A DNA stretch of 52,800 nt, taken from Candidatus Falkowiibacteriota bacterium (GTDB lineage Bacteria > Patescibacteriota > Patescibacteriia > Patescibacteriales > UBA12465). Both the position numbers and the translations under genes were made by a program. The notes under the pieces were generated by a model. That model made no database searches. It saw only the letters and a list, made by a program, of their open reading frames with translations, and was not told the DNA's origin. The stretch is from NCBI GenBank assembly GCA_903847415.1, contig CAINDR010000021.1:1-52800 (forward strand), written 5' to 3'. Shown here piece by piece: positions 3,151 to 21,733 of this stretch; within the stretch, counting starts at the first letter, position 1; each line of letters opens with the position of its first letter.

Positions 3151-3272
3151 GCACGAAGGTTAAAAATAATAGAATTAAATAAATTGATTTTAATTATGGA
3201 GGGGAAATAAATAACTTAATTTCTAGAATCTAACGCAACAACTAAGAATGCTGAATAATCTCTGTTGATAAT

Positions 3273-3869: not shown

Positions 3870-3968
3870 GTTAAATAAACATCAAAAAATAAATAAAAAA
3901 TTTAATACTGATCTTGTATCAATTGAGGATATTAAAAGTCAGATTATTGTTGAAATTTTAAAAAATAT

Positions 3969-4430: not shown

Positions 4431-4470
4431 ACTCATTAATATTTTTCAATTTTTCAGGGGGATTTTTTTA

Positions 4471-4788
4471 TCACTCTAGTGGAAGACCTGGTCTTCTATT
4501 AGATTCCTGTTTAAAAGCCCACCTTATACCTTTGCCTTGAAGGGGTTCGTCTGGAAATCTAGCAATCACATGAAGGTGCGCATGATTGACGTTTTGTCCT
4601 GCATCAACGCCAATATTCCAACCAATATTATAACCCGAGGGATTATGTTTATCTAAAATAACTTTGACTTCTGGCAGCAGCTCTTTAATGGCTAACCATT
4701 CCTCGGTATTAATATCAAAAGGAGTTAGAGTATGTCGATAAGTGATAATCATTCCAGCGTGCCTGATAATTGGGTCAATACTCTCCAC
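4471..4788 (-). CDS. HIT family protein (true N-terminus probably further upstream)
   Basis: Histidine triad motif HAHLHVIARF; the same frame upstream of the GTG reads ...KCNFCLENETLKGEILAKNNLCYF, the usual HIT N-terminal CxxC element. Confidence 0.75.
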   Translation of the reverse strand: MESIDPIIRHAGMIITYRHTLTPFDINTEEWLAIKELLPEVKVILDKHNPSGYNIGWNIGVDAGQNVNHAHLHVIARFPDEPLQGKGIRWAFKQESNRRPGLPLE

Positions 4789-4929
4789 AAAATAACAGAG
4801 GTTATTCTTAGCTAAAATCTCTCCTTTAAGTGTTTCATTTTCCAGGCAAAAGTTGCATTTCTGTATATATTTATAAATATTATCGATTAATTAAAATTTT
4901 ATTTTATCTAACTACATTCAAGATAGTTA

Positions 4930-5157
4930 ATGCATTCGATTAAGTCAACAGGAATTGTAGAATTTCATCGTCAAGGAATTGGTCGAGAATTGGTTCGCCT
5001 TTTTGAAGAATCTGCGCGAAAAGATGAAGCCAAAGTGATTAAAATTAGAGCGTCCTTATTTGCTAGAGAATTTTATGGTCGATTGGGCTATCAAAAAACA
5101 ACAGGAGTGAGAATGTTCCATGGACTAAAAATTCAACCAATGAAGAAAGTGTTTTAA
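4930..5157 (+). pseudogene. Truncated GNAT duplicate (C-terminal part only)
   Basis: Near-identical to residues ~93-157 of the ORF 834-1307; N-terminal half of the domain missing. Confidence 0.8.
4959..5153 (+). repeat. Direct repeat A, right copy
   Basis: Ungapped match to 1109-1303. Confidence 0.9.
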
Positions 5158-5160
5158 ATA

Positions 5161-5196
5161 AAAAATAACCACAACGAGCAGTTGCGGTTATTTTTT
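5161..5196 (+). terminator. Rho-independent terminator
   Basis: AAATAACC-A-CAAC gagca GTTG-C-GGTTATTTTTT. Confidence 0.6.
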
Positions 5197-5309
5197 GTTT
5201 CCTGATTTTGCTTAGTTTTCCAAGATTAATCTTCGGTATCCTTTTTTAGTCTAAGTAGTTAGCCTGTTTTTTAAATAGTTAAATTATATCCACCTTTCTG
5301 TTGCTGAGG

Positions 5310-5639
5310 TTATTTTGTGAGGTAGCGCATAAAAGCTCTGCGGAATTGGCTTTCTTCTTTTGTCTCTTTTTTTTCTTTCTTGGCTTCTTTCTTTGGTTTG
5401 CTTTTTTCTTCTTCTTTAAATTTTGCAAAACGACCATAATACTCATCCCCCGGATCATCTTTCTCAGCTCTTGCCAGTTCTGTTCTCACTTTTTCCAGCT
5501 CCTCTTGATCATTATTTTTGACCATTTCTTTTGCCGATTCTTCGATTTTCTCATCTTTTCTAAAAGCCAAAGAATAATCTTCCGGGTTTGGCTTGATTTC
5601 ATGAGGAGGGAACTCAATTTTATATTGTTCACCGTTCAT
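5310..5639 (-). CDS. Lys/Glu-rich hypothetical protein
   Basis: 109-aa ORF, highly charged and coil-like; no recognisable motif. Confidence 0.5.
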   Translation of the reverse strand: MNGEQYKIEFPPHEIKPNPEDYSLAFRKDEKIEESAKEMVKNNDQEELEKVRTELARAEKDDPGDEYYGRFAKFKEEEKSKPKKEAKKEKKETKEESQFRRAFMRYLTK

Positions 5640-5726
5640 AAATAGATTATAGCATTTTTGGATATAATTTGTAATAGGATAATAGTTAATTTTTTTAATT
5701 GACTAGTCTTATTCGGGTTTTATTAA

Positions 5727-5756
5727 AAAGACGCTTTTTGATATAAGCGTCTTTGT
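5727..5756. terminator. Hairpin terminator
   Basis: AAAGACGCTT (5727-5736) / AAGCGTCTTT (5745-5754). Confidence 0.5.
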
Positions 5757-5787
5757 TGATGAAATTTTTGTGATTTATTTTTTTAAA

Positions 5788-5943
5788 TCACTTTCTAATG
5801 AAACCGGACACTTTTTTAATCATCGAGATTAAGGCGTGAATCAAGTCGCTTTCTTTTAAATATTGATCGTAATCTTTTGGTGAAAGAAACTTGGCGGTTA
5901 TGGCATCTTCATCATTTTGTAATTGTAAAAGATCTGTAGTCAT
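5788..5943 (-). CDS. Small hypothetical protein
   Basis: Internal ATG at 5943 (MTTDLLQLQNDEDAITAKFL...) is more plausible than the ORF-track start at 6000. Confidence 0.35.
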   Translation of the reverse strand: MTTDLLQLQNDEDAITAKFLSPKDYDQYLKESDLIHALISMIKKVSGFIRK

Positions 5944-6046
5944 GATTACTATTTTTATATGGTTATTTATATTATAGCAAATTATTTTGTTAAAAACCAA
6001 TATTTTGTAAACTATTACTATTCTGAGCGCTTGTTTATTTTTAAAT

Positions 6047-6358
6047 TTAAGTCATTTTAGTCGTTTCAATTTCAATTGCCCTAGTTATCATTTTAGTGTT
6101 AACCATTGACTCTGGACGAGCCACTACCTTTCCGGTTACTGACAAAACCCATTTCACACCAACCTCTTGGGCTAAATTTATTAATTGTTCATTATTTCGT
6201 GATGGATCTAGAGTTATTTGTGTAACACCATAACGATCACGCAAGTCAAGAAAAATTAAAGCACCGACATTACGACGACTGGCAACCCAACCGGTTAAGG
6301 TTATAATGTTACCAATAGATTTGTTCGTCAATTCTCCACAAGTATATGTTCTTAACAT
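6047..6358 (-). pseudogene. N-terminal OB-fold (anticodon-binding) fragment of aspartyl-tRNA synthetase
   Basis: MLRTYTCGELT...ITLTGWVASRRNVGALIFLDLRDRYGVTQITLDP matches the AspRS N-terminus; stops after 103 aa without a catalytic domain. Confidence 0.75.
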
Positions 6359-6487
6359 ATGGTTATTATTATAGTAATTATCCCTTAAATCCTATCATGG
6401 GGATAATTTTGTATCAACCGCGTGCTTTGGACCTCATTTTACTTTTTTTCGCAATTATGTTATTGTTGTGTATGAATTTTATAATCC

Positions 6488-6643
6488 ATGGCAACTTACA
6501 AACAGATAATTAAAGGTCTTGGTATACGCCCTGTGATAGGCTTTTTTGGGTATTCAAGTGTCACACTTGTAAAGGATGGAGAAGAAACAATTTTGTTTGA
6601 CACTGGCGGACCCGGAGTAAGATTGCCTCTCCAAAATAGCTGA
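6488..6643 (+). pseudogene. N-terminal fragment of a metallo-beta-lactamase-fold hydrolase
   Basis: 51-codon ORF MATYKQIIKGLGIRPVIGFFGYSSVTLVKDGEETILFDTGGPGVRLPLQNS*; typical MBL N-terminal strands, no HxHxDH. Confidence 0.55.
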
Positions 6644-6681
6644 TAGTATTTATAATACAATTATAAAAATCAAATCAAGTG

Positions 6682-6761
6682 AAAGCCGGGACTAAACCAT
6701 TAATACACTTACAAAAATTACCAAAGCACTGAGTGTCAGTGTTGATAAATTAATAAAATAA
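6682..6761 (+). pseudogene. C-terminal remnant of an Xre-type HTH regulator (frameshifted)
   Basis: KAGTKP then, in another frame, TINTLTKITKALSVSVDKLIK*, the usual Xre C-terminal signature; no start codon region. Confidence 0.5.
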
Positions 6762-6766
6762 TCTCT

Positions 6767-8245
6767 ATGAATAAAAATGATGCTATTAGTAAAATAACTA
6801 CTCGGGAAGAAAATTTTTCAGAATGGTATTTAGATGTAATTCGTGAAGCAGATTTGGCCGAAAATTCTCCAGTTAGAGGTTCTATGATTATAAAACCTTA
6901 TGGTTATGCTATTTGGGAAAATATACAGAAAGTTTTAGATGGTGAATTTAAAAAACGTGGCACACAAAACGCATATTTTCCACTTCTTATCCCAAAAAGT
7001 TTTCTAGAAAAAGAAGCTGAGCATGTAGAAGGCTTTGCAAAAGAATGTGCGGTTGTCACACATCATAGACTTGAAGAAAAAGATGGGAAGCTTATCCCTG
7101 CAGGTGAGATGGATGAGCCACTTGTTATTCGCCCAACATCAGAGACAATTATTTATGATGCATTTTCCAAATGGATTAATTCATACAGAGATTTACCTCT
7201 CATTATTAACCAATGGTGCAATGTAGTCCGCTGGGAAATGCGTCCAAGGCTTTTTTTGCGTACAACAGAATTTCTCTGGCAGGAAGGACATACAGCTCAT
7301 TCCACAAGAAAAGGGGCGGACGAAAAAACACTTGAAATGCTTGAGGTTTATAGACAGTTTGTCGAAGAGTATTTAGCCGTTTCACTTGTTAAGGGTAAAA
7401 AAACCGAACTAGAAAAATTTCCTGGGGCTGAATACACAGCTACTATTGAGGCCATGATGCAAGATGGTAAGGCTTTGCAGTCGGGGACTTCGCATATGTT
7501 AGCTCAAAATTTTGCAAAATCTTTTAACGTTTCGTTTTTAGATGAAAATCAAGAGAAACAATATGTATGGCAAACAAGTTGGGGTCTTAGTACAAGAATT
7601 ATTGGCGCTCTTATTATGTCGCATTCTGATGACAAGGGTCTCGTTCTACCACCAAAAATCGCTCCAATACAAGTCGTGATAATTCCAATTTGGACCAATG
7701 ACGGCGAAAAGAATGTTGTCTTTGCAGAAGTACAGAAAATTAAAAACGAATTTGAAGCTGGTGGAATTACATGTAAAACGGATGACAGAGAAGGGAGACC
7801 TGGCCCCAAGTATTTTGAATGGGAACGAAAAGGTGTTCCACTTCGCATTGAGATTGGTCCTAAAGATGTTCAAAAACAGTCAGTGATTATTGTTGATAGG
7901 ATTACAGGTAAAAAAGAGTGTGTCTTAAACACAAATATAGCTATCAGTGTAAAAGAAAGCTTGGAACAAATACAAAAAACATTACTTGAAAATTCAAGAA
8001 AATTTCGATTAGAAAATACTCGTGAGGTCTTAGATTATGAGGAGTTTAAGAAAGTTATAAATGAAAAAAAAGGATTTATTTTTGCTCATTTGTGTTCAGA
8101 CAAAAATTGTGAAGAAAAAATAAAAGAAGAAACAAACGCAAGTACAAGATGTATTCCTTTTGATGGAGGGTTGGGTGATACTGGTAAGTGTATTTTTTGT
8201 AAAAAAGATGCACAAAACAAAGTCCTATTCGCAAAGTCATATTAA
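6767..8245 (+). CDS. proS: Prolyl-tRNA synthetase, archaeal/eukaryotic-type (short form)
   Basis: RGSMIIKPYGYAIWENIQ, RPTSETIIYDAFSKWI, WQEGHTAH; 492 aa. Confidence 0.93.
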   Translation: MNKNDAISKITTREENFSEWYLDVIREADLAENSPVRGSMIIKPYGYAIWENIQKVLDGEFKKRGTQNAYFPLLIPKSFLEKEAEHVEGFAKECAVVTHHRLEEKDGKLIPAGEMDEPLVIRPTSETIIYDAFSKWINSYRDLPLIINQWCNVVRWEMRPRLFLRTTEFLWQEGHTAHSTRKGADEKTLEMLEVYRQFVEEYLAVSLVKGKKTELEKFPGAEYTATIEAMMQDGKALQSGTSHMLAQNFAKSFNVSFLDENQEKQYVWQTSWGLSTRIIGALIMSHSDDKGLVLPPKIAPIQVVIIPIWTNDGEKNVVFAEVQKIKNEFEAGGITCKTDDREGRPGPKYFEWERKGVPLRIEIGPKDVQKQSVIIVDRITGKKECVLNTNIAISVKESLEQIQKTLLENSRKFRLENTREVLDYEEFKKVINEKKGFIFAHLCSDKNCEEKIKEETNASTRCIPFDGGLGDTGKCIFCKKDAQNKVLFAKSY

Positions 8246-8324
8246 AATATGATGAAAAAGTTTAACGGATATTATGAAGCTATTAATTATCTATAAGTAT
8301 CGACAGGGCGCTGCTGTTAATTTA

Positions 8325-8333
8325 TGCTATAAT
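8325..8333 (+). promoter_or_regulatory. Extended -10 promoter for argS
   Basis: TGCTATAAT (8325-8333), ~50 nt upstream of ATG 8382. Confidence 0.5.
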
Positions 8334-8381
8334 TGTTAATAGCCTTGATTTCCTTAAGTTTTAATGGCAAAATAAGCAAAT

Positions 8382-10076
8382 ATGAAAAATAAACTTGCCA
8401 AGCTATTGGCAGAAAAAGTGCAAGAGCTTGGAGGCCAAGAAATTTCCCCAGCTCAATTATTAGCAAAAATTGAAATTCCCCCATTGCGTGATTTGGGTGA
8501 TTTTGCTTTTCCTTGTTTTGTGTTAGCAAAAGATCTCGCGCTTCCACCAGCAGTAATTGCCGAAAAGCTAGTTAATTTAATGACGACTCAGGATGGCATT
8601 CAGAAAGCAGTAGCAGTAGGGCCTTATCTTAATCTGTTCGTTGATCGGCTAGTTTTTGCTGGCGCTGTTTTGGATGAGGTTCTAACTCTTGGTGAAAAAT
8701 TTGGTAAAGCGGAAAGTAATCAACAAAAGATTGTCATCGAATACCCCTCACCAAACACCAACAAACCTTTGCATCTGGGGCATTTGCGCAATTTATCAAT
8801 TGGCGAATCATTAGCTCGTTTATTGACAGAAAATGGGGCAGAGGTGGTTCGAACAAATCTTTTTAATGACCGAGGAATTCATATTTGCAAATCGATGATT
8901 GCTTACCAAAAAGAAGGTCAGAATGCTGAGCCAGATAAAAAATCCGATCATTTTGTCGGCGATTATTATGTAAAATTTTCAAGCCTAGCTCAAGAGGATA
9001 AAAACTTGGAACAAGAAACTCAAGAGCTTCTTGTGAAATGGGAAAACGGAGATGAAGAAACCAGAGCGCTCTGGCAAAAAATGAATAATTGGGCTTTTAC
9101 AGGATTTAAAGAAACTTTTCAATTGGTTGGGATTAAGCATGACAAAAACTATTTTGAGAGTGAAATGTATCAACAGGGAAAAGAATTGGTCCTCAAAAAT
9201 TTAGCTGCTGGTCTTTTTGCGAAACGGGCTGACGGGGCAATTATTCTAGATCTCACTACAGAGGGTTTGGATGAGAAAGTTTTGTTGCGTGCCGATGGCA
9301 CTAGCGTTTACATGACTCAAGATCTGTATTTAGCTTTTCTCAAGGATGCCGATTACCATTACGATGATTCAATTTATATTGTTGGTAATGAACAAGATTA
9401 TCATTTTCAAGTTTTAGCAATTATTTTAAAGAAGTTGGGGTTTGCCAAGAAAATTAGTCATCTTTCCTATGGAATGATTGCTTTGCCGGAAGGACGCATG
9501 AAATCACGTGAAGGAACAGTGGTTGATGCTGATAATCTCATCTGGGAATTAACCGATTTAGCAAAAGAGGGAATTATTACTAGAACGAGCGACCTTGATC
9601 CGATCGAAACTAATATTCGCGCTCAGAAGATTGCTTTAGCGGCAATTAAATATAAATTACTCAAGACCAATATTTTTAAGGACATGATTTTTGATCCCAA
9701 AGAATCCTTAAGTTTTGATGGTGATACTGGACCATACCTTTTGTATTCTTTCGCCCGAGCTAAGTCGATTTTGGTGAAAGTTTCTCAAGAAGAAACTACT
9801 GACAAACTCACTGAGCTAGAAGATGTTGAATTTGCTTTAATTCAAAAAATTGCTGACTTCAAAGAATTACTCGTTTTTGCAGGTGCAAATCGCAATCCAT
9901 CACTGGTGGCTCACTACGCTTTTGAGTTAGCTCAAATCTTTAATGAATTTTATCACACCTGTCCGGTCGTTAGTTCTCATCAAATTAATTTACGCTTAAA
10001 GTTAGTGGAAGCTTTTACGATTGTTTTAGGAAAATCATTAAACATTTTAGGAATCGAAACTTTAGAGAAGATGTAG
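8382..10076 (+). CDS. argS: Arginyl-tRNA synthetase
   Basis: YPSPNTNKPLHLGHLRN, FNDRGIHICKS, GMIALPEGRMKSREG; 564 aa. Confidence 0.95.
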   Translation: MKNKLAKLLAEKVQELGGQEISPAQLLAKIEIPPLRDLGDFAFPCFVLAKDLALPPAVIAEKLVNLMTTQDGIQKAVAVGPYLNLFVDRLVFAGAVLDEVLTLGEKFGKAESNQQKIVIEYPSPNTNKPLHLGHLRNLSIGESLARLLTENGAEVVRTNLFNDRGIHICKSMIAYQKEGQNAEPDKKSDHFVGDYYVKFSSLAQEDKNLEQETQELLVKWENGDEETRALWQKMNNWAFTGFKETFQLVGIKHDKNYFESEMYQQGKELVLKNLAAGLFAKRADGAIILDLTTEGLDEKVLLRADGTSVYMTQDLYLAFLKDADYHYDDSIYIVGNEQDYHFQVLAIILKKLGFAKKISHLSYGMIALPEGRMKSREGTVVDADNLIWELTDLAKEGIITRTSDLDPIETNIRAQKIALAAIKYKLLKTNIFKDMIFDPKESLSFDGDTGPYLLYSFARAKSILVKVSQEETTDKLTELEDVEFALIQKIADFKELLVFAGANRNPSLVAHYAFELAQIFNEFYHTCPVVSSHQINLRLKLVEAFTIVLGKSLNILGIETLEKM

Positions 10077-10144
10077 GGAGGTATACCTAAACTAAATAAT
10101 GATAACTTTGGTAATTTTCTTTAATTATTTTTTTTGACTTTGCT
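10044..10144 (+). repeat. Direct repeat B, left copy (argS 3' end + toxin 3' end)
   Basis: 101-bp ungapped match to 14508-14608 with one mismatch (a10098/g14562). Confidence 0.95.
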
Positions 10145-10226
10145 TTTAAATAAGTTGCAGTTTTAAACTCAGTTATTTTGAGCTAAACAGTTATGAAATT
10201 TAAATAATTTAACTTGGTATATTTAT

Positions 10227-10940
10227 ATGCATAATAGTGCAAAGCAACTATTAAAAAATAAATTGTTAGAAAAATGGATAGCTGACGGGTATTTGGTGAA
10301 AAAATATTATGAGAAAAAAATTGCTAAATATTCTATTAATTCAGAAGCTTCTTTGGACTGGAGAACAAAAGAAATGCACGATTTATTTTTTTCTCATGTA
10401 TTAGATGGTGTTAATTTTTCTTCAGTAAATTCAATTTTGGACGTCGGATGTGGTATTTGTGGTATTGTTGATTATTTAGATTCTCTGGGTGTAGAGAATT
10501 TTAACTATTTAGGTATTGATATAGTGGACAGTTTTATTTCTGTTGCTCAAAATAAATATTTTGAAAGGGATGTTGATGTTTTGAATAAAAATTTTTTAAA
10601 CGAAGACTTTTGGCCCAAGAGAAATTTTGATTTAGTGTTAAATCTTGGTGGTTTAAATTCAAAGGTTAGATTTCAATATAGCTTCCTGCAGTACAATATT
10701 GAGAAAATGATTTTATGTAGTAGTAAATATGTTGCATTTAATGTTTTAATTAAAGTTAAAAATACATATTTTAAAAAAAATAAGCTTAGAGCTGTGGGAG
10801 CAATTGCTTCTTTCGATGAAGACAAGCTTATTGCTATTTTAAAAAAAATTAGTCTTAAATATAACATTGATTTTGATATTAAAAAAATCTCTATATTCGA
10901 AGGTAGTATCGACGCCTTTGTATTAATTAAATTATTATGA
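10227..10940 (+). CDS. Class I SAM-dependent methyltransferase (cassette B)
   Basis: SILDVGCGICGIVDYLDSLGVENFNYLGIDI motif I/II. Confidence 0.75.
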   Translation: MHNSAKQLLKNKLLEKWIADGYLVKKYYEKKIAKYSINSEASLDWRTKEMHDLFFSHVLDGVNFSSVNSILDVGCGICGIVDYLDSLGVENFNYLGIDIVDSFISVAQNKYFERDVDVLNKNFLNEDFWPKRNFDLVLNLGGLNSKVRFQYSFLQYNIEKMILCSSKYVAFNVLIKVKNTYFKKNKLRAVGAIASFDEDKLIAILKKISLKYNIDFDIKKISIFEGSIDAFVLIKLL

Positions 10941-11485
10941 AGTTAATAAATAAGCCAAATAAAATAGTAGTTGATCAAATAAATAACATTATTCATCTCG
11001 ATTGGCAGGCCATTGAAGTTGCTGTCGGTTTGTTTCATAAAAAAATAGAAAAAATATCACCATTTGATTCTTTGTTGGTACTTGTCAGAGGGGCAATGGT
11101 ACCAGCCGCCATGTTGTCTCATTCGCTAAATAATAGGAACATGAAATTTTATCAGGGAGTTAAAACGAACTCAAACAAACCGCATGATTATGGAAAATTT
11201 CGTAGTTTGTTGCTACCAAAACTGATGCCAGGAGAGAGGTTATTAATTGTAGAAGATATTATTTTTGAAGGTGATACTGTTAATAATGCTATTGATTATG
11301 TAATAAAATGTGGTTGCGTATGTGTTGGAGTTTGTAGTATAGTAATCGATGAAAATCTAAAAAATTTACCAGCTATAAAAAGAAATTCGGTGCCACTGAT
11401 AGGTGCTTACGAATGTGAAAATCTAAAATGGATAAGATTTCCATGGGAAATAAAGATAGATAATGAAATATCTATTAATTTTTAA
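10937..11485 (+). CDS. Type I phosphoribosyltransferase, Gpt/HGPRT-like (cassette B)
   Basis: LVLVRGAMVPAAMLS, PRPP loop LLIVEDIIFEGDTV, C-terminal WIRFPWE; ATGA overlap with previous gene. Confidence 0.75.
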   Translation: MKLINKPNKIVVDQINNIIHLDWQAIEVAVGLFHKKIEKISPFDSLLVLVRGAMVPAAMLSHSLNNRNMKFYQGVKTNSNKPHDYGKFRSLLLPKLMPGERLLIVEDIIFEGDTVNNAIDYVIKCGCVCVGVCSIVIDENLKNLPAIKRNSVPLIGAYECENLKWIRFPWEIKIDNEISINF

Positions 11486-11499
11486 ATAACATTATTGTT

Positions 11500-12057
11500 A
11501 TGATTGTGGTGTTAGAGGGGTTGCCTGCTAGCGGCAAAACAACAATTGCTAATTATTTGCAAGTAAATTGTAATTTTAATAAAGTTAACGAATCCCTTGG
11601 TTACCTGGGTGGAGTTAATCTTTCGGATGATCAAGGGGAAATTTTTCAAGAAACCCTTAAAAAATATAATTTAGCAAAGATTTCAAAATCGCACTCCGTG
11701 ATAGATCGTGGTTATGCATCGATGCTCGCATGGGATTATTGTGCTGCGCACTTAAAAATAGCTGACAATCTATCTACTAAAAATAAATGGGTTACCAAGG
11801 CAATAAAAAAAGGCTTATTATACGAGCCAGATATTTACATTTATTTAGCTATTAGCGAAGAAACTAGTTTAACAAGAAGACCCAGGAGGGAAAACATTAA
11901 AGATGTTTGGACTAGCGTTTTAGGATTAAAATATTGTTTGGATTATTATGCATATTTTTTTGGAAAAGAAGAAAACAAGAAAAAAACTATTTTTATTGAT
12001 GCCGAAATGAACACAAAAGAAGTGATCAAAATTTTAAAGGCTAAATTGTTAATATGA
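11500..12057 (+). CDS. P-loop nucleoside/nucleotide kinase, thymidylate-kinase-like (cassette B)
   Basis: Walker A EGLPASGKTTIANYL, VIDRGYASMLAWDY, DIYIYLAISEETSLTRRPRRE. Confidence 0.7.
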   Translation: MIVVLEGLPASGKTTIANYLQVNCNFNKVNESLGYLGGVNLSDDQGEIFQETLKKYNLAKISKSHSVIDRGYASMLAWDYCAAHLKIADNLSTKNKWVTKAIKKGLLYEPDIYIYLAISEETSLTRRPRRENIKDVWTSVLGLKYCLDYYAYFFGKEENKKKTIFIDAEMNTKEVIKILKAKLLI

Positions 12058-13343
12058 AAAAATCTGTTCATATAATTTATATAGCTGAAGATGGAGTATC
12101 TTCTTTGGTCTGTGGTGTCGGGACGATAGTCCATAATTTTTTATTATCTTTTGATAAAATCGCGTCAAATTTTGAAAAACATTCCGTTGTTTTAAGGTTG
12201 TCTATAATATCATTAAAATACAAAAAAACAGATATAGGTTTTAGGCCTGATTTTTTAAAAAGATCTGCTGATTTATGCAAATTCTATAAAGGTTCACTCA
12301 TATTAATTGACAAGCCTAATAATCATTCAAGTGATTATTTTAATTTTTCTAATTGGAAAATTCTTAATCGCAAAGTAAGATTTATTTTAAAAGAAATATT
12401 TAGCAAGAATGATGATCTTACAGTTATTATTTCAAACGATACTATATTCGCCGAATCTTATTTTGTAGAGTCAAAAGTAATTAATATCTGGCTACCAAAT
12501 AGTTTGGGTATTTTACATAAGCAATCTTACGTCCAACAACCAAAACGAATATCTTGGGAATTAAGTGCGATGAATAGATCAAAAAAAGAAAATTTTTTTA
12601 TAGGTAGTGTATCGAGATATATTTTTAAAATTATAATACAAAAATACGATTTAAATCCTAACAAGGTACTATCTCTACATAATGGGTTTAACTTATCGTC
12701 CCTTAAATTGTTTTTAAGGAACGATTTCGAAATATCTAGTTATTTAAAAAAAAGAAAGATACCTCTAGACAAGAATATAATTTTTTGCTTCGCCAGAGCA
12801 GATGAATATAAAGGCCTCGATGTTGCATTAAAAGCTATGCTTAAAATTTCTAGAAAATATGGATTGCATCCAGTCTTAATTGCTTCTAAGTTTAGTGATG
12901 AAAAATTTATAGAGAATATACAAGAGCAGTTAAAATTTATAGCGAATAAATCTCAACAACCTGTATCTTTATTTTTTGATTACGAATTTGAACTACCAAA
13001 ATATCTTTTGCAATATAAACGAGTGAAATATTTGCTTAATATGCCTAAAAATGATTTTTGTCCTCTAGTTCCTTTTGAAGCTGAAATTTTGGGGCATAGA
13101 GATTTATGTGTTGTTAATAGTAATATTGCTTGTATTAGAGATGTAATAACAGACATGCAAGATGGATTTCTTTGTTTGCCGGCGTCAAAACATATAGTTA
13201 AAAAAATTGCTAAAATATTTGACTTATCTCCTGATGTGAGAAATACTATTATTGCTTCAGGTAAGGCAAGAGCCTTGAAAGCAATGGATATTAAAAAAAG
13301 CTATTTAGCAACTTTAAAAATGCTTATAGATACTAATATATGA
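12054..13343 (+). CDS. GT-B glycosyltransferase (group 1/4-like; cassette B)
   Basis: C-terminal FCFARADEYKGLDVALKAMLKI...PFEAEILGHRDLCVVNSNIACIRDVI...DGFLC typical of GT-B donor-binding domain; ATGA overlap. Confidence 0.7.
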   Translation: MKKSVHIIYIAEDGVSSLVCGVGTIVHNFLLSFDKIASNFEKHSVVLRLSIISLKYKKTDIGFRPDFLKRSADLCKFYKGSLILIDKPNNHSSDYFNFSNWKILNRKVRFILKEIFSKNDDLTVIISNDTIFAESYFVESKVINIWLPNSLGILHKQSYVQQPKRISWELSAMNRSKKENFFIGSVSRYIFKIIIQKYDLNPNKVLSLHNGFNLSSLKLFLRNDFEISSYLKKRKIPLDKNIIFCFARADEYKGLDVALKAMLKISRKYGLHPVLIASKFSDEKFIENIQEQLKFIANKSQQPVSLFFDYEFELPKYLLQYKRVKYLLNMPKNDFCPLVPFEAEILGHRDLCVVNSNIACIRDVITDMQDGFLCLPASKHIVKKIAKIFDLSPDVRNTIIASGKARALKAMDIKKSYLATLKMLIDTNI

Positions 13344-13750
13344 AAATTTATTCTGCGGGTGGAGTATTAACCAAAAAAGAAAATAACCAGATTTTTGTGT
13401 TGTTAGTAGAACATCTTGATGGTACTTTTGTTTTTCCAAAGGGTCATGTTGAGGAAGGTGAAACTTTTCAGGAGGCAGCTAAAAGAGAAATAAGGGAAGA
13501 AGTTGGTCTCTCGGATATTGTTATTGATAAACAATTAGGTGTAATAAAAAGAGTTTCAAAAAATTTAGGCAATCAGCTAATAGAAAAAAGGATTGTTATG
13601 TTTAGTGTAATTATAAATAATTATGATCATCTAAAAAACACTGAAGAAGAGTACCGTTGGTTTGATATTGATGATGTAGCGGGTCGCTTAAGATATAGCG
13701 AAGATAGAAGATTTTTTTTAGGAATAAAAGGTTTTTTAACATTAAAATAA
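13340..13750 (+). CDS. NUDIX hydrolase (cassette B)
   Basis: NUDIX box GHVEEGETFQEAAKREIREEVGL. Confidence 0.88.
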   Translation: MKIYSAGGVLTKKENNQIFVLLVEHLDGTFVFPKGHVEEGETFQEAAKREIREEVGLSDIVIDKQLGVIKRVSKNLGNQLIEKRIVMFSVIINNYDHLKNTEEEYRWFDIDDVAGRLRYSEDRRFFLGIKGFLTLK

Positions 13751-13763
13751 AGATTGAGGAGGG

Positions 13764-14378
13764 TTGAAGATGAGAAAACAAGTTGTGTTTATTGGTGGAA
13801 TCCATGGTGTTGGTAAATCAACTATATGTCATGAGGTGCACTTAGCGACGTCAGCTATTATTGTAAAACAAAGACACTTAGTGAAAGAGGTGGCAATAAA
13901 ACTTGGGGCTATTACCTGGGAAGATGCAGGCCTGGTTCATAATTTAGTTATAAAGGATGCTGCCAGTTTGGTTATAGAAAGAGTAAAAGCTAAAAAAAGT
14001 TCGCTTGTTTTAGTCGACTGTCATTATTCAATAAGGCAAGCCAAAGCTTTAAGAATAAGTTCCAGTCCAGGCTTTAAGGGATACATCCCGGACTTAGACG
14101 AAAAATTTGTTTCTGTGCTAAGAAAATATTTTGAATTAAAATTTATTTTAGTGCAAACTGCCCCAGAAATTGCTTTTGCAAGAATTGTAAACAGACCAAT
14201 AGAGATTAGAGATGTCGATTGTAGTTTGGAGTTAATGGTAAAAAGTGAACGAATTGAACAAATATATTTTATCCAAATGGTTCAGAATTTTCAAATTGAT
14301 CAGAAAAACTTTGTGATATTAAATAATAATGGTGACCTAAGCCAGACTTTAAAATCTTTTAATAATTTCGTTTTTTAA
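13764..14378 (+). CDS. P-loop kinase, adenylate-kinase-like/AAA (cassette B)
   Basis: Walker A GGIHGVGKSTICHEV; SD GGAGGG upstream. Confidence 0.65.
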   Translation: MKMRKQVVFIGGIHGVGKSTICHEVHLATSAIIVKQRHLVKEVAIKLGAITWEDAGLVHNLVIKDAASLVIERVKAKKSSLVLVDCHYSIRQAKALRISSSPGFKGYIPDLDEKFVSVLRKYFELKFILVQTAPEIAFARIVNRPIEIRDVDCSLELMVKSERIEQIYFIQMVQNFQIDQKNFVILNNNGDLSQTLKSFNNFVF

Positions 14379-14400
14379 GGACTATAAAATAGTCCTTTTT
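14377..14400 (+). terminator. Rho-independent terminator closing cassette B operon
   Basis: AAGGACTAT AAA ATAGTCCTT TTT overlapping the stop codon of the last gene. Confidence 0.8.
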
Positions 14401-14507
14401 AATTGGTCAGTAAACCTAATAAAATAAAAGGTTAGCTATGTATTAGACTTTTTGAGCGCAGGAGAAGATATTTTTTTATTAATAAAGAACAAAATAACTT
14501 TATAAAT

Positions 14508-14608
14508 ATTTTAGGAATCGAAACTTTAGAGAAGATGTAGGGAGGTATACCTAAACTAAATGATGATAACTTTGGTAATTTTCTTTAATTATTTTTTTTG
14601 ACTTTGCT
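14508..14608 (+). repeat. Direct repeat B, right copy
   Basis: See 10044-10144. Confidence 0.95.
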
Positions 14609-14943
14609 GTTTCATTGCCACCCTCTAAATCATTTTTATGATAAACCAATAAAACATTAATCAATTTTTTCTCGTTATGCATGGCAACAATACAGCGGTT
14701 CCCAGATCCATGGCGAGATTTTTTTGTTCCTGCGATACTAAATTCAGTTTTTATAATTTTAATATCAAAATCTTTTGCAATTATTTCGGCAATAGATTTT
14801 TCTAAGATAACGTCAAAACTTTGAAACTCTCTCACGAGAGCTTCTATTGTAATATCCCAGGATCGTCCATATTTTTTAGCAAATTTTTTGATGAAGTGGC
14901 GATGGGCGTATTCTTCGAAATTTACTGAATATTTAGTAAACAT
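14551..14943 (-). CDS. Putative toxin partner of a Panacea antitoxin
   Basis: 130-aa ORF downstream of and overlapping (11 bp) the Panacea-domain gene; contains SRHGSGNRCIVAMHNEKKLINVLLVYHKNDL; no confident family. Confidence 0.6.
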   Translation of the reverse strand: MFTKYSVNFEEYAHRHFIKKFAKKYGRSWDITIEALVREFQSFDVILEKSIAEIIAKDFDIKIIKTEFSIAGTKKSRHGSGNRCIVAMHNEKKLINVLLVYHKNDLEGGNETAKSKKIIKENYQSYHHLV

Positions 14944-15622
14944 GGTTTGGGTCCTCTTGGGTTATTAGACTATAAGGGATTATTTCATTATCTTCGCAGA
15001 TTGCATATGGTAGTTGGTCATGAGTAAATTTGACGATATCTTGAGTTCTTTTTCCGCGCCATTTTAAGGAGATATCTTTAATCATTTTTAGCTCCACTGC
15101 GTTTAGTTCTGATAACTTTTCCCGTTCACCGGAACGAGTCTGAGAAATAAAAAAGACACCATCCTTTGTGGTTTTATCTACCTCGATAATTCCAGCCTCA
15201 AAAAGTTCTTCAATGGCGCGGAAATAATTATCTGGCACTGGACCGTATTGAATTTTTCGATAAGGCATTCCGCTCATACTTTCTAGATGTTCATAGAACC
15301 AAGCAAAATCAGCCAAGTAGAGCATTTTTGCTAACTTGGTTTTTGGTATTTTGCTATGAGAGTCTTTTTCTGATCGCAAATAGGCTAAAATCATTTGCTT
15401 GTATTTTTTGTAGTTTGGTTTTAGCCCGCCACGCATTTCTTCTAAAGAAATGCCAAAAAGATCCGCTAGTTTTATCGCCTCAAATAGGCTTAGTTCGTTT
15501 TTTCCTTGTTCAAAGCCAATATAGGAAGATCGGGAAATGCCAATTTTTTCGGCGGTTTCTAGCTGAGAAAGACCTCTTTTTAGTCTTAGTTCTTTGATAA
15601 ACTTGTAATAATCTTTAGTCAT
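14933..15622 (-). CDS. HTH (Xre) + Panacea/DUF4065 (SocA-like) antitoxin
   Basis: HTH LKRGLSQLETAEKIGISRSSYIGFEQGK, then TKLAKMLYLADFAWF...YRKIQYGPVPDNYFRAIEEL...QDIVKFTHDQLPYAICEDNEIIPYSL typical of Panacea; ATG at 15622 preferred. Confidence 0.8.
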   Translation of the reverse strand: MTKDYYKFIKELRLKRGLSQLETAEKIGISRSSYIGFEQGKNELSLFEAIKLADLFGISLEEMRGGLKPNYKKYKQMILAYLRSEKDSHSKIPKTKLAKMLYLADFAWFYEHLESMSGMPYRKIQYGPVPDNYFRAIEELFEAGIIEVDKTTKDGVFFISQTRSGEREKLSELNAVELKMIKDISLKWRGKRTQDIVKFTHDQLPYAICEDNEIIPYSLITQEDPNHVY

Positions 15623-15631
15623 ATTACTAAG

Positions 15632-15685
15632 ATTATAAGGCAATAATGTTTAAAAGTCAAACAAAGCTTGTCTATATTTTAGACA
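15632..15685 (-). promoter_or_regulatory. TA promoter plus candidate operator
   Basis: Minus strand TTGACT (15660-15655), 17 nt, TATAAT (15637-15632); inverted repeat TGTCTA-TATTT-TAGACA at 15669-15685. Confidence 0.55.
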
Positions 15686-16564
15686 TTATAATTTTAAAGT
15701 AGTCACTAATAATTTCTGATAATCTTGCCAACGCTTTTCTTCTTCCTGGAGAGATTTCTTAGCCCAAGAGACGAGAAAATTATTCTTTTCTAAAACTGAT
15801 ATTTTTTTTGCTTTGGTAATTGCTAAAGCTAAAGTTTCAATTAAATAATTGTGAAAGTGGGGATAGATATTTTGGAAAATTTCTATTTCCAGGTCAGAGA
15901 GATTGTCTTTTTTATTTTTAAATTTTTTCATTAAACTGACTGTGACTGCGGTGGGAATATTATTTTTTAAATCATCATGCCAATCATATAAGTCATCAGC
16001 AAGTTGCCGACAATTAAGAAATAGCACGAGAAAATCCCAAAACTTCTTTTGCTCTGTTGAGTTAATGTCGCGATTTTCTAAAAATAAAAAGACTGAAATA
16101 TAGAGCCCCAAAGATTTTTGGTGGCCCTTTTTTAAAAGAGAATCTTCATCAAGTGTTTGCCAATAATTTGGATTCTTTTTTAGTTCACTAACTCGTGAAA
16201 ATTCGGTTTGATTGGCAATTTCCATTATTAAAAAAGCTTTGTCGACCAATTTACTTTTTCCGCCCAGAACTTTGGCGCTTTCAAATAACAAAAGATTAGC
16301 AATAGGAAGTTCGGCCAAACTGGCGCCACCATCCATTATGTGATCATAAATAGTATAGGATCCCCAGAGTTTCAAATTGGCTTGTTTCCAGGATTTCTTG
16401 TCGGCTTTTGGTAAGGGAGAAAAAGCCTTTTTGTCTCGCCAAGATTTTTCTAGACTAGTAATGATTTCTACGGAAGCAAGACCTTCGGGGCTTTTGAGAA
16501 TTTTATCATAAATTGGTTTCACCGTTTTTTGAATAGAAAATAAAGATAATTTTTGTGTTTTCAT
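15686..16564 (-). CDS. All-alpha isoprenoid-synthase-like protein (divergent)
   Basis: Asp-rich NCRQLADDLYDWHDDLKNN and DHIMD motifs resemble the class I isoprenoid synthase fold; ATGA overlap with the HK gene. Confidence 0.45.
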   Translation of the reverse strand: MKTQKLSLFSIQKTVKPIYDKILKSPEGLASVEIITSLEKSWRDKKAFSPLPKADKKSWKQANLKLWGSYTIYDHIMDGGASLAELPIANLLLFESAKVLGGKSKLVDKAFLIMEIANQTEFSRVSELKKNPNYWQTLDEDSLLKKGHQKSLGLYISVFLFLENRDINSTEQKKFWDFLVLFLNCRQLADDLYDWHDDLKNNIPTAVTVSLMKKFKNKKDNLSDLEIEIFQNIYPHFHNYLIETLALAITKAKKISVLEKNNFLVSWAKKSLQEEEKRWQDYQKLLVTTLKL

Positions 16565-17973
16565 ATCTCGTGTTTGAAATCGATGGGCAAGATAATTGAA
16601 AATAAGCAGCCACCTTCTTTGTTATTTTTTGCCTCTATTTTTCCGCGGAAATCTTGCTCTACTAAATGTTGAATTGAAGAAAGTCCCAACCCCAATCCCT
16701 TTCCTTGTTTTGTACTAAAAAATGGAGTAAAGATTTTTTCAAAATTTTCTGAGCTAATTCCTGGGCCGTTGTCCTTAATGGTTAATTTAATTTCTTGGTT
16801 ATTTTGGTAGTTTAATTTGATACTTATTTTTTTGTTTAATGATGAATTTTCACCAAGAGCATCAAGAGCGTTAGTGATTAAATTCATAATTATCTGGCTA
16901 AATTTTAAAGGGTCACCAAAAATTTTAATATCTTCTTCGTAGCGAAACTTCAGTAGCACTTTCTCTCGAATGGCTCGGTGGTTTAAAAGACTAATCATTC
17001 CCTTGACTTCTTGGTTAATCGAAAATTGACGACGACACTCTTCTTTCTGAAGTTGTTTTTTAACACTGATTACCAATACTTCCATTCTTTTTGCTGCTTC
17101 CACTGCTTGTTCAACTTGATAGGAAGTTTTTTGATATTGTTTATCTCGAGAAAGTTGTTCCAGATTCAAAGAAACGGCAGTAAGAGGGTTGATTAGGTCA
17201 TGAAAAATTCCTGCGGAAATTCGACCAAATTCGGCAAAACGATAAAGTTGGCTAATTTTTTCCATTTGCATTTTTTGTAATTGCTCAGTTCTTTTTTTAA
17301 CCGTTATTTCGAGATTATCTCTTTCTATTTTGAGCGCCTGTTCAGAATTAAGAGCTTTTCTAAGGGAATTTTCAATTTCTCGGTTAGCTAGCCAGGAAAG
17401 AGTAGCCATAATCGAAAGAGTAATAATAATTGGGATGGCGTCATAAATTGTCACCATTTCTGTTGCCCAATAGGTATTTGGAGTGATAATTTGATGGCCC
17501 TGAAGATATCCAAGGGTCGCAAGATAGAGGCTAATAAATAGAGTTGTAATCAGAGAAAAACGAGTACTAATTAAAATTCCAGCGCTTAAGATGGTGAAGG
17601 CATAAAGTAAAAGACTTTGAGGTAAATCTATTCCCCAGTGAAAAGAGAGATATAAATTTGGAATAAAGAAAATACTTAAAAAAAGGAGAGAAGCGATTTT
17701 AATCTTTTGTTTTCTAGAAAGATAATGAGCAAAAACGAAAACAGCACCCATTAAAATAAAGACCGCAGGTTGGAAACCGCGGTCTTCACCAGAAATAATA
17801 TCGATAACTTCACGAATAAAGGATAATAACAAAATTGTGGCCATTAAAATCTCTGAAGAAATTAAGAGAATGTTAAGAATAAATTCTTTTCTTTTTTGCT
17901 CCTCATTTTCACTTTGAGCTTCGATTAGGTGGTGATAAATTTTTTGACTTAATTTTTTTAAAATTTTTTTCAT
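16561..17973 (-). CDS. Multi-TM sensor histidine kinase
   Basis: Several TM helices, H-box ISAGIFHDLINPLTAVSLN, N-box IIMNLITNALDAL, DNGPGIS, GKGLGLGLS. Confidence 0.9.
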   Translation of the reverse strand: MKKILKKLSQKIYHHLIEAQSENEEQKRKEFILNILLISSEILMATILLLSFIREVIDIISGEDRGFQPAVFILMGAVFVFAHYLSRKQKIKIASLLFLSIFFIPNLYLSFHWGIDLPQSLLLYAFTILSAGILISTRFSLITTLFISLYLATLGYLQGHQIITPNTYWATEMVTIYDAIPIIITLSIMATLSWLANREIENSLRKALNSEQALKIERDNLEITVKKRTEQLQKMQMEKISQLYRFAEFGRISAGIFHDLINPLTAVSLNLEQLSRDKQYQKTSYQVEQAVEAAKRMEVLVISVKKQLQKEECRRQFSINQEVKGMISLLNHRAIREKVLLKFRYEEDIKIFGDPLKFSQIIMNLITNALDALGENSSLNKKISIKLNYQNNQEIKLTIKDNGPGISSENFEKIFTPFFSTKQGKGLGLGLSSIQHLVEQDFRGKIEAKNNKEGGCLFSIILPIDFKHEI

Positions 17974-17976
17974 ATT

Positions 17977-18111
17977 TTAAAGCCAAGGTTTTCCAGGGGT
18001 AAAAATACTAATGATATTTGCCATGGTGCCCCCAATTGCCAGAAGACCAGTTTTTTTAATTAGATTTTTTTTGTTTAATTTTTCAATTTTTTTTGTTTTT
18101 TTGTTTTTCAT
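17977..18111 (-). CDS. Small single-TM peptide (44 aa) between RR and HK genes
   Basis: ATG at 18111: MKNKKTKKIEKLNKKNLIKKTGLLAIGGTMANIISIFTPGKPWL*; fits the gap exactly. Confidence 0.5.
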   Translation of the reverse strand: MKNKKTKKIEKLNKKNLIKKTGLLAIGGTMANIISIFTPGKPWL

Positions 18112-18141
18112 TTTTTTGATTTGTTTGCTTGGTGAAGATTT

Positions 18142-18816
18142 TTATGGTTTTGGAATTTCCAACTTATATCCACGACCGGGCAAAGTGCTAATTATTTTTT
18201 GTTTTTTGTCGTTTAATTTTTTTCTTAATTTTAGAATATGCATTTCGATTGTGTTTGAAAAAGGATCACCATTGATGTCCCAAACTCCCTCCAATAATTT
18301 GGTTCGAGATAAAACTTTCCCCTGATGCTTGACCATGAATTCTAGTAGAGCATATTCTTTTCCAGTTAAGACGACAGTTTTTCCTTTTTTGGTGGCGGAA
18401 AAATTTTCGGGATCAAGGGTGATTTGTCCGCAAGAAAGATTTTTTTCTTCTCTAATAACTGGTCGCCTACCAAGAGCTTGGATGCGAGCTGATAGTTCGG
18501 TCATTGAAAAAGGTTTGGTGAGATAGTCATCTGCTCCAGATTCAAAACTTGCTACTTTGTCATCCAATTCCGTTCGAACGGTGAGCATGATGATTGGCGT
18601 CCAAATTTTTTCTGATCGAATTTCTTTGATTACTTCTAAGCCATTTATCCCTGGCAATAAATAATCCATAATGATAACATCGTAGTCATTGGTTCGAGCC
18701 AGAAAAGAACCTTCTTCGCCATTGCGCGCTGAATCGACAACATGATTTTCCGCTTTTAAAGCTTGAACTAAAAAGGCATTAAGAGCCACCTCATCTTCAA
18801 CAAGCAAAATTTTCAT
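18142..18816 (-). CDS. OmpR/PhoB-family response regulator
   Basis: Receiver MKILLVEDE...IIMDYLLPGINGLEV...LTKPF and C-terminal wHTH LTGKEYALLEFMVKHQGKVLSRTKLLEGVW. Confidence 0.92.
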   Translation of the reverse strand: MKILLVEDEVALNAFLVQALKAENHVVDSARNGEEGSFLARTNDYDVIIMDYLLPGINGLEVIKEIRSEKIWTPIIMLTVRTELDDKVASFESGADDYLTKPFSMTELSARIQALGRRPVIREEKNLSCGQITLDPENFSATKKGKTVVLTGKEYALLEFMVKHQGKVLSRTKLLEGVWDINGDPFSNTIEMHILKLRKKLNDKKQKIISTLPGRGYKLEIPKP

Positions 18817-18929
18817 AAAAGAAAAATTAAAGATTAAAATTGTTTTTCAAAAATACTTTTTTATTTTATCACAAGCCAGATAAATAACCGATAAATAAAA
18901 TTTTTCATCTGGGTAAAACTTTTTTTCGG

Positions 18930-18958
18930 TTGTTTTTCCTTGATTTACCTGCTATAAT
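18930..18958 (+). promoter_or_regulatory. Promoter of PBP2
   Basis: TTGTTT (18930-18935), 17 nt, TGCTATAAT extended -10 (TATAAT 18953-18958), ATG at 18968. Confidence 0.55.
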
Positions 18959-18967
18959 CCAAGTATT

Positions 18968-21085
18968 ATGCATAAAAAATGGGCATTTTCCAATAAAGCA
19001 TTATTAGAAAAAGAAAGCAGTCAGGAAAATCCTTTTATTGTGAAAGAGGGTGGTTTTGGTGCTCTCAAGGACTCTTTCTACTACACCGACTGGACCGAAC
19101 ACTCTTTTATTGCTGATCACACCAAGAGCTCAGAAGCAGTTGGCCTCACTTTTGATTTTCGCCGTTTATTTTGGTTGCGTTTAATTTTAGTTTTTTTTAT
19201 TGGAATTCTAATTTTTCGATCAATTTTTCTTCAAATGATTAAAGGTGATTACTATTATGGTTTATCCGAAGGTAATCGTTTGCGCCTAGAAATAATTGAA
19301 CCCAAAAGAGGGATTATTTATGATCGAAATTTGATTCCCCTAGTGCACAACTCTGCCAACTTTGTTCTATATGTAATTCCTCACGATTTACCAAAAGATG
19401 AGGAATCTCGTGATGCTATTTTGCGTCGGATGGTTAACATTCTGGAGATGAATAAAATTCAGAATATCCAAGGCCAGAAAAGTGCTTCCGCCAATTTAAT
19501 TGAAGATAGCCCGCTTTTTTTTCAACTGAAAGATCAGTTGGCAGAAATCAAAATGTCTTCTTTTAAGGCTTATTCTCCTTTTTTCATTGCCGATAATATT
19601 GAGTATGATCAGGCCTTGCGTTTATATCTAGAGTGCAATGGTGAGCCCGGAGTTTTTCTTTCAAATAAAATTCGCCGAACCTATGAGATTTCTGCTCTTG
19701 ATTATAGTTCATCACTATCTCATTTACTTGGTTACACTGGTAAAATCAGTGAGAAAGAGCTCAAGGAACAGCCAGGAAAATACACGCCAATTGATTATCT
19801 CGGCAAATCTGGATTAGAGTATATTTGGGAAAAAGAGTTAAAAGGGATTCCAGGAAGAAAAAGCTCAGAAGTAGATGCAATGGGGAAGCTTAGCAAGGTG
19901 GTCAGCGAAACTGTTGCGGTTGATGGTCTAAATTTAGAATTAGCGATTGATAAAGGTCTGCAACAGCAAAGCGAAATGGTTTTGCGTCGTTATTTAGAAA
20001 AATTAAATCTTAGTTCTGGTTCGATCGTTGCCCTCGATCCTCGCAATGGTGAAGTTTTAGCAATGGTTTCTTTGCCAGCCTATGATAACAATTTGTTTGC
20101 CAAAGGTATTAAGAAAGAGGATTATCAAAAATTTTTAGAAGATCCGGCGATGCCTCTTTTTAATCGCTCAATCTCAGGAGAATATCCTTCGGGCTCAACG
20201 GTAAAAATTGTGGTGGCAACCGCAGCTTTAGAGGAAAATATAATTTCTGAAAGCACCAGCGTCGTTTCATCCGGTGGTTTAACTATCGGTGTTTGGACTT
20301 TTCCAGATTGGAAACCTGGTGGTCATGGAGTGGTTGATGTTCGGAAGGCAATTGCTAATTCGGTAAATACCTTTTTCTACTATATCGGAGGTGGTTATCA
20401 GGGATTTGTTGGTTTAGGCGTTGATCGCCTGGAAAAATATCTTAAAATATTTGGCCTCAATGAAAAAACCGGCATTGACCTTACTGGAGAGCGATCTGGT
20501 TTTGTGCCGAATGCAGACTGGAAAAAACAAACCAAAAAAGAGTCGTGGTATATTGGTGATACCTATCATTTAGCGATTGGGCAGGGAGATTTATTAGTGA
20601 CTCCGATTCAGGTTGCTAATTATACGGCCGCTTTGGCTAATGGTGGTACATTATATCAACCAAGGCTAGTTAAAGCGATTTTAAATGATCAAAATCAGTT
20701 AGTGCGCAGTATTCCGGTGAAAATTATTCGTAGTAATCTGGCTAGTCCTAGTAATTTAGAAATCGTTCGGGAGGGAATGAGGGAGACTGTTGTAAATGGT
20801 AGTGCTCGCAGTCTTCAATCAGTTCCAGTGCCAGTTGCTGGAAAAACAGGAACAGCCCAATGGAGTAGCAAAAAAGATCCGCACGCTTGGTTCTCTGGTT
20901 TTGCACCTTACGACAACCCGCAAATAGCAATTGCTGTCTTAGTTGAAGAGGGGCGAGAAGGGAGCTCGGTTGCTACGCCGATTGCCAAAGAAATTTTAAC
21001 TTGGTATTTTGGTGGTCGCGGTGAAGTAAAACCAGAAGTTATTAATGTCACTCCTTTGATTGCTACTAGTACAATCATTGATTAA
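18968..21085 (+). CDS. mrdA: Penicillin-binding protein 2 (transpeptidase)
   Basis: YPSGSTVKI (SxxK), SVNTFFYYIG, VAGKTGTAQ (KTG); N-terminal TM; 705 aa. Confidence 0.9.
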   Translation: MHKKWAFSNKALLEKESSQENPFIVKEGGFGALKDSFYYTDWTEHSFIADHTKSSEAVGLTFDFRRLFWLRLILVFFIGILIFRSIFLQMIKGDYYYGLSEGNRLRLEIIEPKRGIIYDRNLIPLVHNSANFVLYVIPHDLPKDEESRDAILRRMVNILEMNKIQNIQGQKSASANLIEDSPLFFQLKDQLAEIKMSSFKAYSPFFIADNIEYDQALRLYLECNGEPGVFLSNKIRRTYEISALDYSSSLSHLLGYTGKISEKELKEQPGKYTPIDYLGKSGLEYIWEKELKGIPGRKSSEVDAMGKLSKVVSETVAVDGLNLELAIDKGLQQQSEMVLRRYLEKLNLSSGSIVALDPRNGEVLAMVSLPAYDNNLFAKGIKKEDYQKFLEDPAMPLFNRSISGEYPSGSTVKIVVATAALEENIISESTSVVSSGGLTIGVWTFPDWKPGGHGVVDVRKAIANSVNTFFYYIGGGYQGFVGLGVDRLEKYLKIFGLNEKTGIDLTGERSGFVPNADWKKQTKKESWYIGDTYHLAIGQGDLLVTPIQVANYTAALANGGTLYQPRLVKAILNDQNQLVRSIPVKIIRSNLASPSNLEIVREGMRETVVNGSARSLQSVPVPVAGKTGTAQWSSKKDPHAWFSGFAPYDNPQIAIAVLVEEGREGSSVATPIAKEILTWYFGGRGEVKPEVINVTPLIATSTIID

Positions 21086-21102
21086 CACTTAAATTAATTT
21101 TT

Positions 21103-21615: not shown

Positions 21616-21696
21616 TATTTAATAAATAGCTAATATTGGATAAATTTATTCTTTTGAAAGTCTTTTCTTTTAAATTGACAACAATAATTGTAGCTA

Positions 21697-21726: not shown

Positions 21727-21733
21727 AGATAAT

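Follow-up and report, generated by a model that had tools for sequence, protein, structure and literature searches.

A repeat-bounded six-gene operon in Patescibacteria as a candidate mobile pathway for a nucleotide or nucleoside conjugate

Six genes between two copies of an argS 3′ end

The window analyzed here, the whole 52,800-nucleotide stretch of contig CAINDR010000021.1 from Candidatus Falkowiibacteriota bacterium (Patescibacteriota), holds an operon of six same-strand open reading frames (ORFs) at 10227-14378. They encode a methyltransferase (MT), a phosphoribosyltransferase (PRTase), a kinase-like protein (K1), a GT-B glycosyltransferase (GT), a NUDIX protein and a second kinase-like protein (K2), and we refer to them together as the cassette (Table 1). 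Start and stop codons overlap as ATGA at 10937, 12054 and 13340. For K2 we prefer the ATG at 13770, which has AGGAGG just upstream; the alternative listed start, a TTG at 13764, adjoins the ribosome-binding sequence. A terminator-like hairpin coincides exactly in position with the end of the operon, and the hairpin scan by itself is not significant (1 found vs 1.6 expected in shuffles). The preliminary description of this DNA had listed six genes, three ATGA overlaps and one terminator, all of which we recovered at the same positions. No RNA families were found near the cassette locus and no tRNAs in the window.

Table 1. Features of the cassette locus, in window coordinates.
Feature	Position	Strand	Description
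Left direct repeat	10039-10147	+	Last argS codons (NILGIETLEKM-stop) and downstream intergenic DNA
MT ORF	10227-10940	+	237 aa
PRTase ORF	10937-11485	+	182 aa
K1 ORF	11500-12057	+	185 aa
GT ORF	12054-13343	+	429 aa
NUDIX ORF	13340-13750	+	136 aa
K2 ORF	13770-14378	+	202 aa
Terminator-like hairpin, operon end	14377-14397	+	AAGGACTAT-AAA-ATAGTCCTT then TTTAA
Right direct repeat	14503-14611	+	Duplicate of the argS 3′ end; reads NILGIETLEKM-stop in frame

The operon is an island, since it is bracketed by direct repeats, which the preliminary description had missed. The two copies, each comprising the final 38 nt of argS and the DNA beyond, are 97% identical over 109 nt and differ at a single base over about 100 nt; these are the only strong copies in the whole genome. 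Exactly the six cassette genes lie between them. The island genes have a GC content of 26-33%, and the other window genes mostly 33-41%. As expected of an island at a gene 3′ end, the repeats include the gene end and the site is unoccupied in relatives: of two genomes of the same genus, one (G002) has a histidine kinase gene directly after argS, and the other (G001) has a Fic gene there, followed by a homolog of the window's 292-aa gene. We disfavor an assembly artifact as the source of the repeat, as substitutions distinguish its two copies and two other genomes show the same arrangement. On the opposite strand, at 14551-15643 (-), an HTH-Panacea antitoxin gene adjoins a 130-aa ORF of no assigned family. 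The ORF, which encodes a putative toxin, overlaps the right repeat at its end; G001 holds an HTH-Fic gene at the same site.

Recurrence of the cassette and its flanking repeats

We searched about 750 distinct genomes, including a phylum sample of 380 and a class sample of 381; outside the phylum, the search comprised one scan of a genome collection, restricted to close relatives, and queries of phage, plasmid and viral collections. Three of the roughly 750 genomes carry the cassette. Querying the genome collection with the PRTase returned one true relative, at 57% identity, in Parcubacteria group bacterium Athens0714_12 (genome G605, locus L043), and the phylum sample yielded a second in a genome of another class (G227, locus L044). 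The class sample contained no carrier besides Athens0714_12, and the cassette is absent from the same-genus relatives G001 and G002 and from nearly all other genomes searched.

All six families thus co-occur as one operon in three Patescibacteria genomes of two classes. The gene order at L043 is MT, PRTase, NUDIX, K1, GT, K2, with NUDIX displaced relative to the window, and that at L044 is MT, PRTase, K1, a GT-NUDIX fusion, K2. The adjacency of MT to PRTase, the adjacency of K1 to GT and the final position of K2 are kept in all three. The fusion of GT with NUDIX, together with rearrangement in which the content is retained, is a strong sign of a common function, and the six genes probably form one undescribed pathway. 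The preliminary description had drawn its functional link from operon structure, to be abandoned if the genes failed to co-occur elsewhere; their recurrence at L043 and L044, in rearranged order and with a fusion, now extends that link beyond the operon itself. At L043 the NUDIX protein is extended at its C-terminus by a fused domain of about 200 aa (6997-7623), which has no Pfam or PDB match and in which we see, by eye, a degenerate Rossmann methyltransferase-like pattern.

This recurrence bears directly on the possibility that the operon is a chance assembly of accessory genes for salvage and modification that have nothing to do with one another. All six families are widespread in bacteria, and Patescibacteria hosts rely on salvage. 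However, the six families recur in three genomes of two classes despite rearrangement and fusion, and the unit is bounded by repeats. The host also has a separate thymidylate (dTMP) kinase gene at 52435-52794 (-), apparently split between the end of the window contig and contig C60, and K1 is therefore not the housekeeping enzyme. A chance operon is strongly disfavored by the co-occurrence, and we consider it very unlikely. Unrelated housekeeping salvage, which the preliminary description had named as an outcome that would undo its proposal, likewise fits poorly with a cassette that is absent from close relatives and accompanied by a separate dTMP kinase gene.

All three cassettes lie between duplicated gene 3′ ends, namely those of argS, a histidine kinase gene and tRNA-Ala. 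At L043 the cassette is situated between two 3′-end fragments of a histidine kinase gene (about 5049-5281 and 10150-10345), the intact gene being at 64-1389; the three 3′ ends are 84-89% identical and in frame, and the unit between the repeats consists of exactly the six cassette genes. In G227, copies of a repeat occur near 4465, 5934, 12043 and 14775, with the cassette between copies, and the longer copies share a segment with the 3′ end of a tRNA-Ala gene (contig position about 21980). The G227 unit comprises the cassette and two more genes, neither with a Pfam family. More widely, positions 4465-22055 of this contig (C2; L044, L073) form an array of segments split by related repeats downstream of tRNA-Ala, the cassette being one segment. 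Such repeats are absent from control DNA of G002 (33 kb) and G605 (12 kb), and 18 kb of G085 shows only a 57-nt repeat pair, 216 nt apart. With no genes but these six between the repeats in two genomes, the cassette is a transferable unit complete in itself. We considered an MFS transporter near L043 as an exporter for the cassette, but it lies beyond the right repeat and hence outside the unit.

The window ArgS is 48% identical to that of G605 and 27% identical to that of G227. PRTase (57 and 34%) and GT (45 and 30%) alone follow this kinship; the corresponding identities are 49 and 51% for K1, 39 and 38% for MT, 35 and 33% for K2, and 31 and 43% for NUDIX. Transfer between lineages explains this more simply, because the cassette identities do not follow ArgS and close relatives lack the cassette. 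The anatomy resembles that of islands at gene 3′ ends of the tRNA and guaA type in its gene-end direct repeats, in cargo that is absent from close relatives and in its AT-rich DNA. Unlike those islands, the unit has no recognizable integrase: neither an integrase nor a recombinase was recognized between the repeats in the window, L043 or L044. The repeats are also long by comparison, about 60-230 nt and 84-97% identical around the cassettes, and reach 383 nt at other sites of the G605 contig. Insertion may have proceeded by site-specific integration in trans or by recombination of circles carrying a homologous gene end, both of which fit the anatomy.

Other islands of this kind occur in these genomes. 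A second island in the window, at 1106-5153, is situated between the 3′ end of a GNAT gene and a 198-nt, 92% identical duplicate of it, and contains an AbiLi/AbiLii-like defense pair (1450-3150) along with TehB-like methyltransferase, NUDIX and HIT genes. As 10 of the 15 codon differences between its repeat copies are synonymous, the extra gene end looks like the remnant of a once-functional homolog as opposed to a simple local duplication. On G605 contig C22 (L050, L071), several further stretches, each lying between repeats 73-383 nt long, carry radical S-adenosylmethionine (SAM)/SPASM, methyltransferase and other genes, with an MvdD-like ATP-grasp gene nearby; this looks like the serial insertion of small integrase-less cargo units.

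Families, folds and conserved motifs of the six proteins

Four of the proteins can be assigned at the Pfam level. The MT is a class I SAM-dependent methyltransferase (Methyltransf_25, E 9.9e-7; Methyltransf_11 above cut-off) that keeps the family-specific ASLDW and NLGGLNS; its DxGCG SAM motif and ASLDW are invariant across the three cassette genomes. The GT is a GT4-like GT-B enzyme (Glycos_transf_1, E 1.3e-8) with a conserved GVG loop, RAD-YKG and D-x7-E. The NUDIX protein (Pfam NUDIX, E 5e-16) is of the FPKGH type, with diadenosine tetraphosphate (Ap4A) hydrolases as its nearest solved structures, and its NUDIX box, GX5EX7REUXEEXGU, reads GHVEEGETFQEAAKREIREEVGL and is intact in all three genomes. 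The PRTase (Pribosyltran, E 1.7e-8) is below curated equivalog cut-offs in profile searches, and among solved structures it is closest to archaeal purine PRTases, the P. horikoshii enzyme 1vdm and GPT-2 (4z1o). The acidic pair ED of its phosphoribosyl pyrophosphate (PRPP) loop, its pyrophosphate loop and its FPWE tail are all present and conserved in the three genomes as VEDI..G, VRG and KWIRFPWE. From these features, the PRTase appears near to the purine-type, GPT-2-like enzymes.

The two kinases are less readily placed. K1 scores under the cut-offs of TIGR00041 (dTMP kinase; 31.5 bits vs 83.25) and dNK (deoxynucleoside kinase; 26.3 vs 27). Its structural model, which is of low confidence (predicted local distance difference test, pLDDT, 66), matches the folds of deoxyadenosine kinase, dCK, TMPK and AbmG (8j5f). 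The three K1 proteins are about 50% identical, with an invariant P-loop, DRG and RR-R. The predicted fold of K2 (pLDDT 83) best matches archaeal adenylate kinases at a template modeling (TM) score of about 0.7; the top Foldseek matches are 6ln3, OdinAK, 1nks and 1ki9, and the P-loop GGIHGxGK is invariant in the three genomes. Against PRK04040 (AdkA), however, K2 reaches 24.6 bits, with a cut-off of 155. K2 therefore resembles AdkA by predicted fold and is not a member by score. Although archaeal adenylate kinase is its nearest solved relative, as archaeal GPT-2 is that of the PRTase, K2 is distant from it (15-18% identity in structural alignments) and is set apart by its DCHY...IPDLD motifs, which lie in a lid region modeled at low confidence. 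The family calls of the preliminary description thus hold for MT, PRTase, GT and NUDIX, and for the kinases only below curated cut-offs.

Because their catalytic motifs are conserved in three genomes, all six proteins look catalytically competent. Four of the six (PRTase, K1, K2 and NUDIX) resemble nucleotide or nucleoside enzymes most closely. This accords in part with the earlier proposal that the proteins could together make, phosphorylate, sanitize, glycosylate and methylate a nucleotide-like molecule, except that "sanitize" was a guess, the nearest NUDIX relatives being Ap4A hydrolases.

Base hypermodification in phages uses P-loop kinases, glycosyltransferases and methyltransferases, and the preliminary description had allowed for a product in DNA or RNA. 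A phage-type DNA or RNA hypermodification pathway is nevertheless not supported and is the most improbable reading we considered: IMG/VR yielded no relatives for four of the proteins (PRTase, K1, K2 and GT), phage records likewise had none for PRTase and K1, and the unit lacks a pyrimidine hydroxymethylase and a DNA-binding part. We also rejected a phage or plasmid origin of the cassette, given that PRTase and K1 are without relatives in phages, plasmids and IMG/VR, K2 in plasmids and IMG/VR, and GT in IMG/VR. Relatives of MT occur full-length on a Nostoc plasmid and in part in a viral contig, neither within a similar cassette.

A possible nucleoside-conjugate pathway, its rivals and its closest relatives

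We put the chance at somewhat better than even (roughly 0.55) that the six genes form a single biosynthetic cassette that moves horizontally as the sole cargo of a small island at the argS 3′ end and makes a glycosylated, methylated nucleotide or nucleoside conjugate. In such a pathway, the PRTase would join a purine-like base to PRPP to give a nucleoside 5′-monophosphate, and K1 (nucleoside- or nucleoside monophosphate-kinase-like) and K2 (archaeal adenylate-kinase-like) would set the phosphorylation state of the nucleotide. The GT would move a sugar from a nucleoside diphosphate (NDP)-sugar, the MT would methylate either the product or one of its intermediates, and the NUDIX protein, which one genome has as a fusion with the GT, would cleave a pyrophosphate bond and so release or limit the nucleotide. 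The small conjugate could act as an antibiotic-like compound, as a signal or as a surface donor. We infer the order of the steps and all substrates in this scheme. More tentatively, the cassette may represent a mobile Patescibacteria pathway to a previously unknown purine-type nucleotide or nucleoside, glycosylated and methylated, carried as the sole cargo of islands that have no integrase, insert at the 3′ ends of genes and bring a homologous gene end with them.

Several points weigh against a nucleotide or nucleoside conjugate. As members of generic families, GT and MT might act on acceptors that have nothing to do with the nucleotide. The structural model of K1 is of low confidence, and neither kinase reaches the curated cut-off of a known family. 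The unit has no dedicated exporter, tailoring oxidoreductase or aminotransferase, the co-occurrence is supported by only three genomes, and the substrates of the enzymes are all inferred.

The GT4-like nature of the GT raises the alternative of a nucleotide-sugar or glycan cassette, in which the kinases and PRTase would feed an NDP-sugar pool, GT and MT would assemble a methylated surface glycan, with NUDIX trimming NDP-sugars. Distant relatives of MT and GT (20-30% identity) occur in polysaccharide-type regions of Rhizobium and Agrobacterium, and the GT-NUDIX fusion suits donor trimming. Yet the unit lacks a sugar nucleotidyltransferase, epimerase, flippase and polymerase, a single GT makes no glycan, and a purine PRTase with two kinases would be unusual for such a role; we regard this alternative as doubtful. 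The GT relatives found at 20% in Agrobacterium and Rhizobium are not in a similar cassette.

The neighborhood makes a conflict or defense module the strongest rival, ahead of a glycan role and chance assembly, although we still judge it unlikely. The cassette would then produce a nucleotide signal or a toxic nucleotide upon phage attack or against competitors, with NUDIX as the off-switch. It lies in a mobile island region beside conflict genes: the HTH-Panacea antitoxin pair is just downstream, the AbiL island, likewise bounded by a duplicated gene 3′ end, is 5 kb upstream, and G001 has its Fic gene at the same site. The sporadic distribution of the cassette also fits a defense role. However, PADLOC gave no system-level match, only weak, partial, single-protein ones; the unit has no sensor, effector nuclease or membrane effector; and islands in these genomes carry non-defense cargo too.

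For the biosynthetic cassette that we favor, the closest known systems offer precedents for parts only. The puromycin pur, A201A ata and 3′-amino-3′-deoxyguanosine operons are likewise compact and make a modified purine nucleoside via phosphorylated intermediates. Aminonucleoside clusters also use methyltransferases, and that of A201A glycosyltransferases; to our knowledge, none has a PRTase or a pair of P-loop kinases. Conversely, neither the Pur10-type dehydrogenase nor the Pur4 aminotransferase of these clusters is among the six cassette proteins. Puromycin-type pathways include a NUDIX hydrolase (Pur7, AtaP7; PMC11641026). AbmG/ThmB, a nucleoside kinase recruited into albomycin and 4′-thiothymidine biosynthesis (PMC12691670), is represented among the K1 fold matches by AbmG; the 4′-thiothymidine cluster pairs its kinase with a radical SAM enzyme, whereas the window and L043 units have no radical SAM gene. 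The biosynthetic module of Ter stress-response systems, in which nucleobase PRTases and HAD phosphoesterases are predicted to make a nucleoside-like metabolite (PMC7824862), is similar in its PRTase-based synthesis in an accessory operon. The HAD, TerB/C/D/F and TelA proteins of Ter systems are absent from the six, and Ter modules are not described in that paper with a set of MT, GT, NUDIX and two kinases. The make-up of the cassette is matched by none of pur/ata, AbmG/ThmB and Ter, each of which has defining features that are missing here. No description of this six-gene set was found in the open-licence literature, nor any matching described pathway, in keeping with the earlier remark that no standard pathway could be recognized.

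Patescibacteria have very small genomes and are poor in nucleotide biosynthesis, and a mobile, dedicated six-gene nucleotide pathway is unexpected in them. If our reading is correct, an uncultured group would be the source of a new small molecule, perhaps aimed against or towards host or neighbor cells. The repeat-bounded unit defines exactly which six genes to express.

Other matches to single cassette proteins were set aside. A K1-like gene in G085 stands in a row with genes for a 545-aa protein of no assigned family and an NDK-domain protein (together L061:6304-9140), a different context from which the other cassette genes are absent, and the neighborhoods of weak PRTase matches in G107, G117 and G240 hold no cassette. 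In G117 (L041), with families named by eye, an FPWE-type PRTase gene directly follows a QueE-like radical SAM gene and precedes a methyltransferase gene and a small MazG-like gene, a possible deazapurine context.

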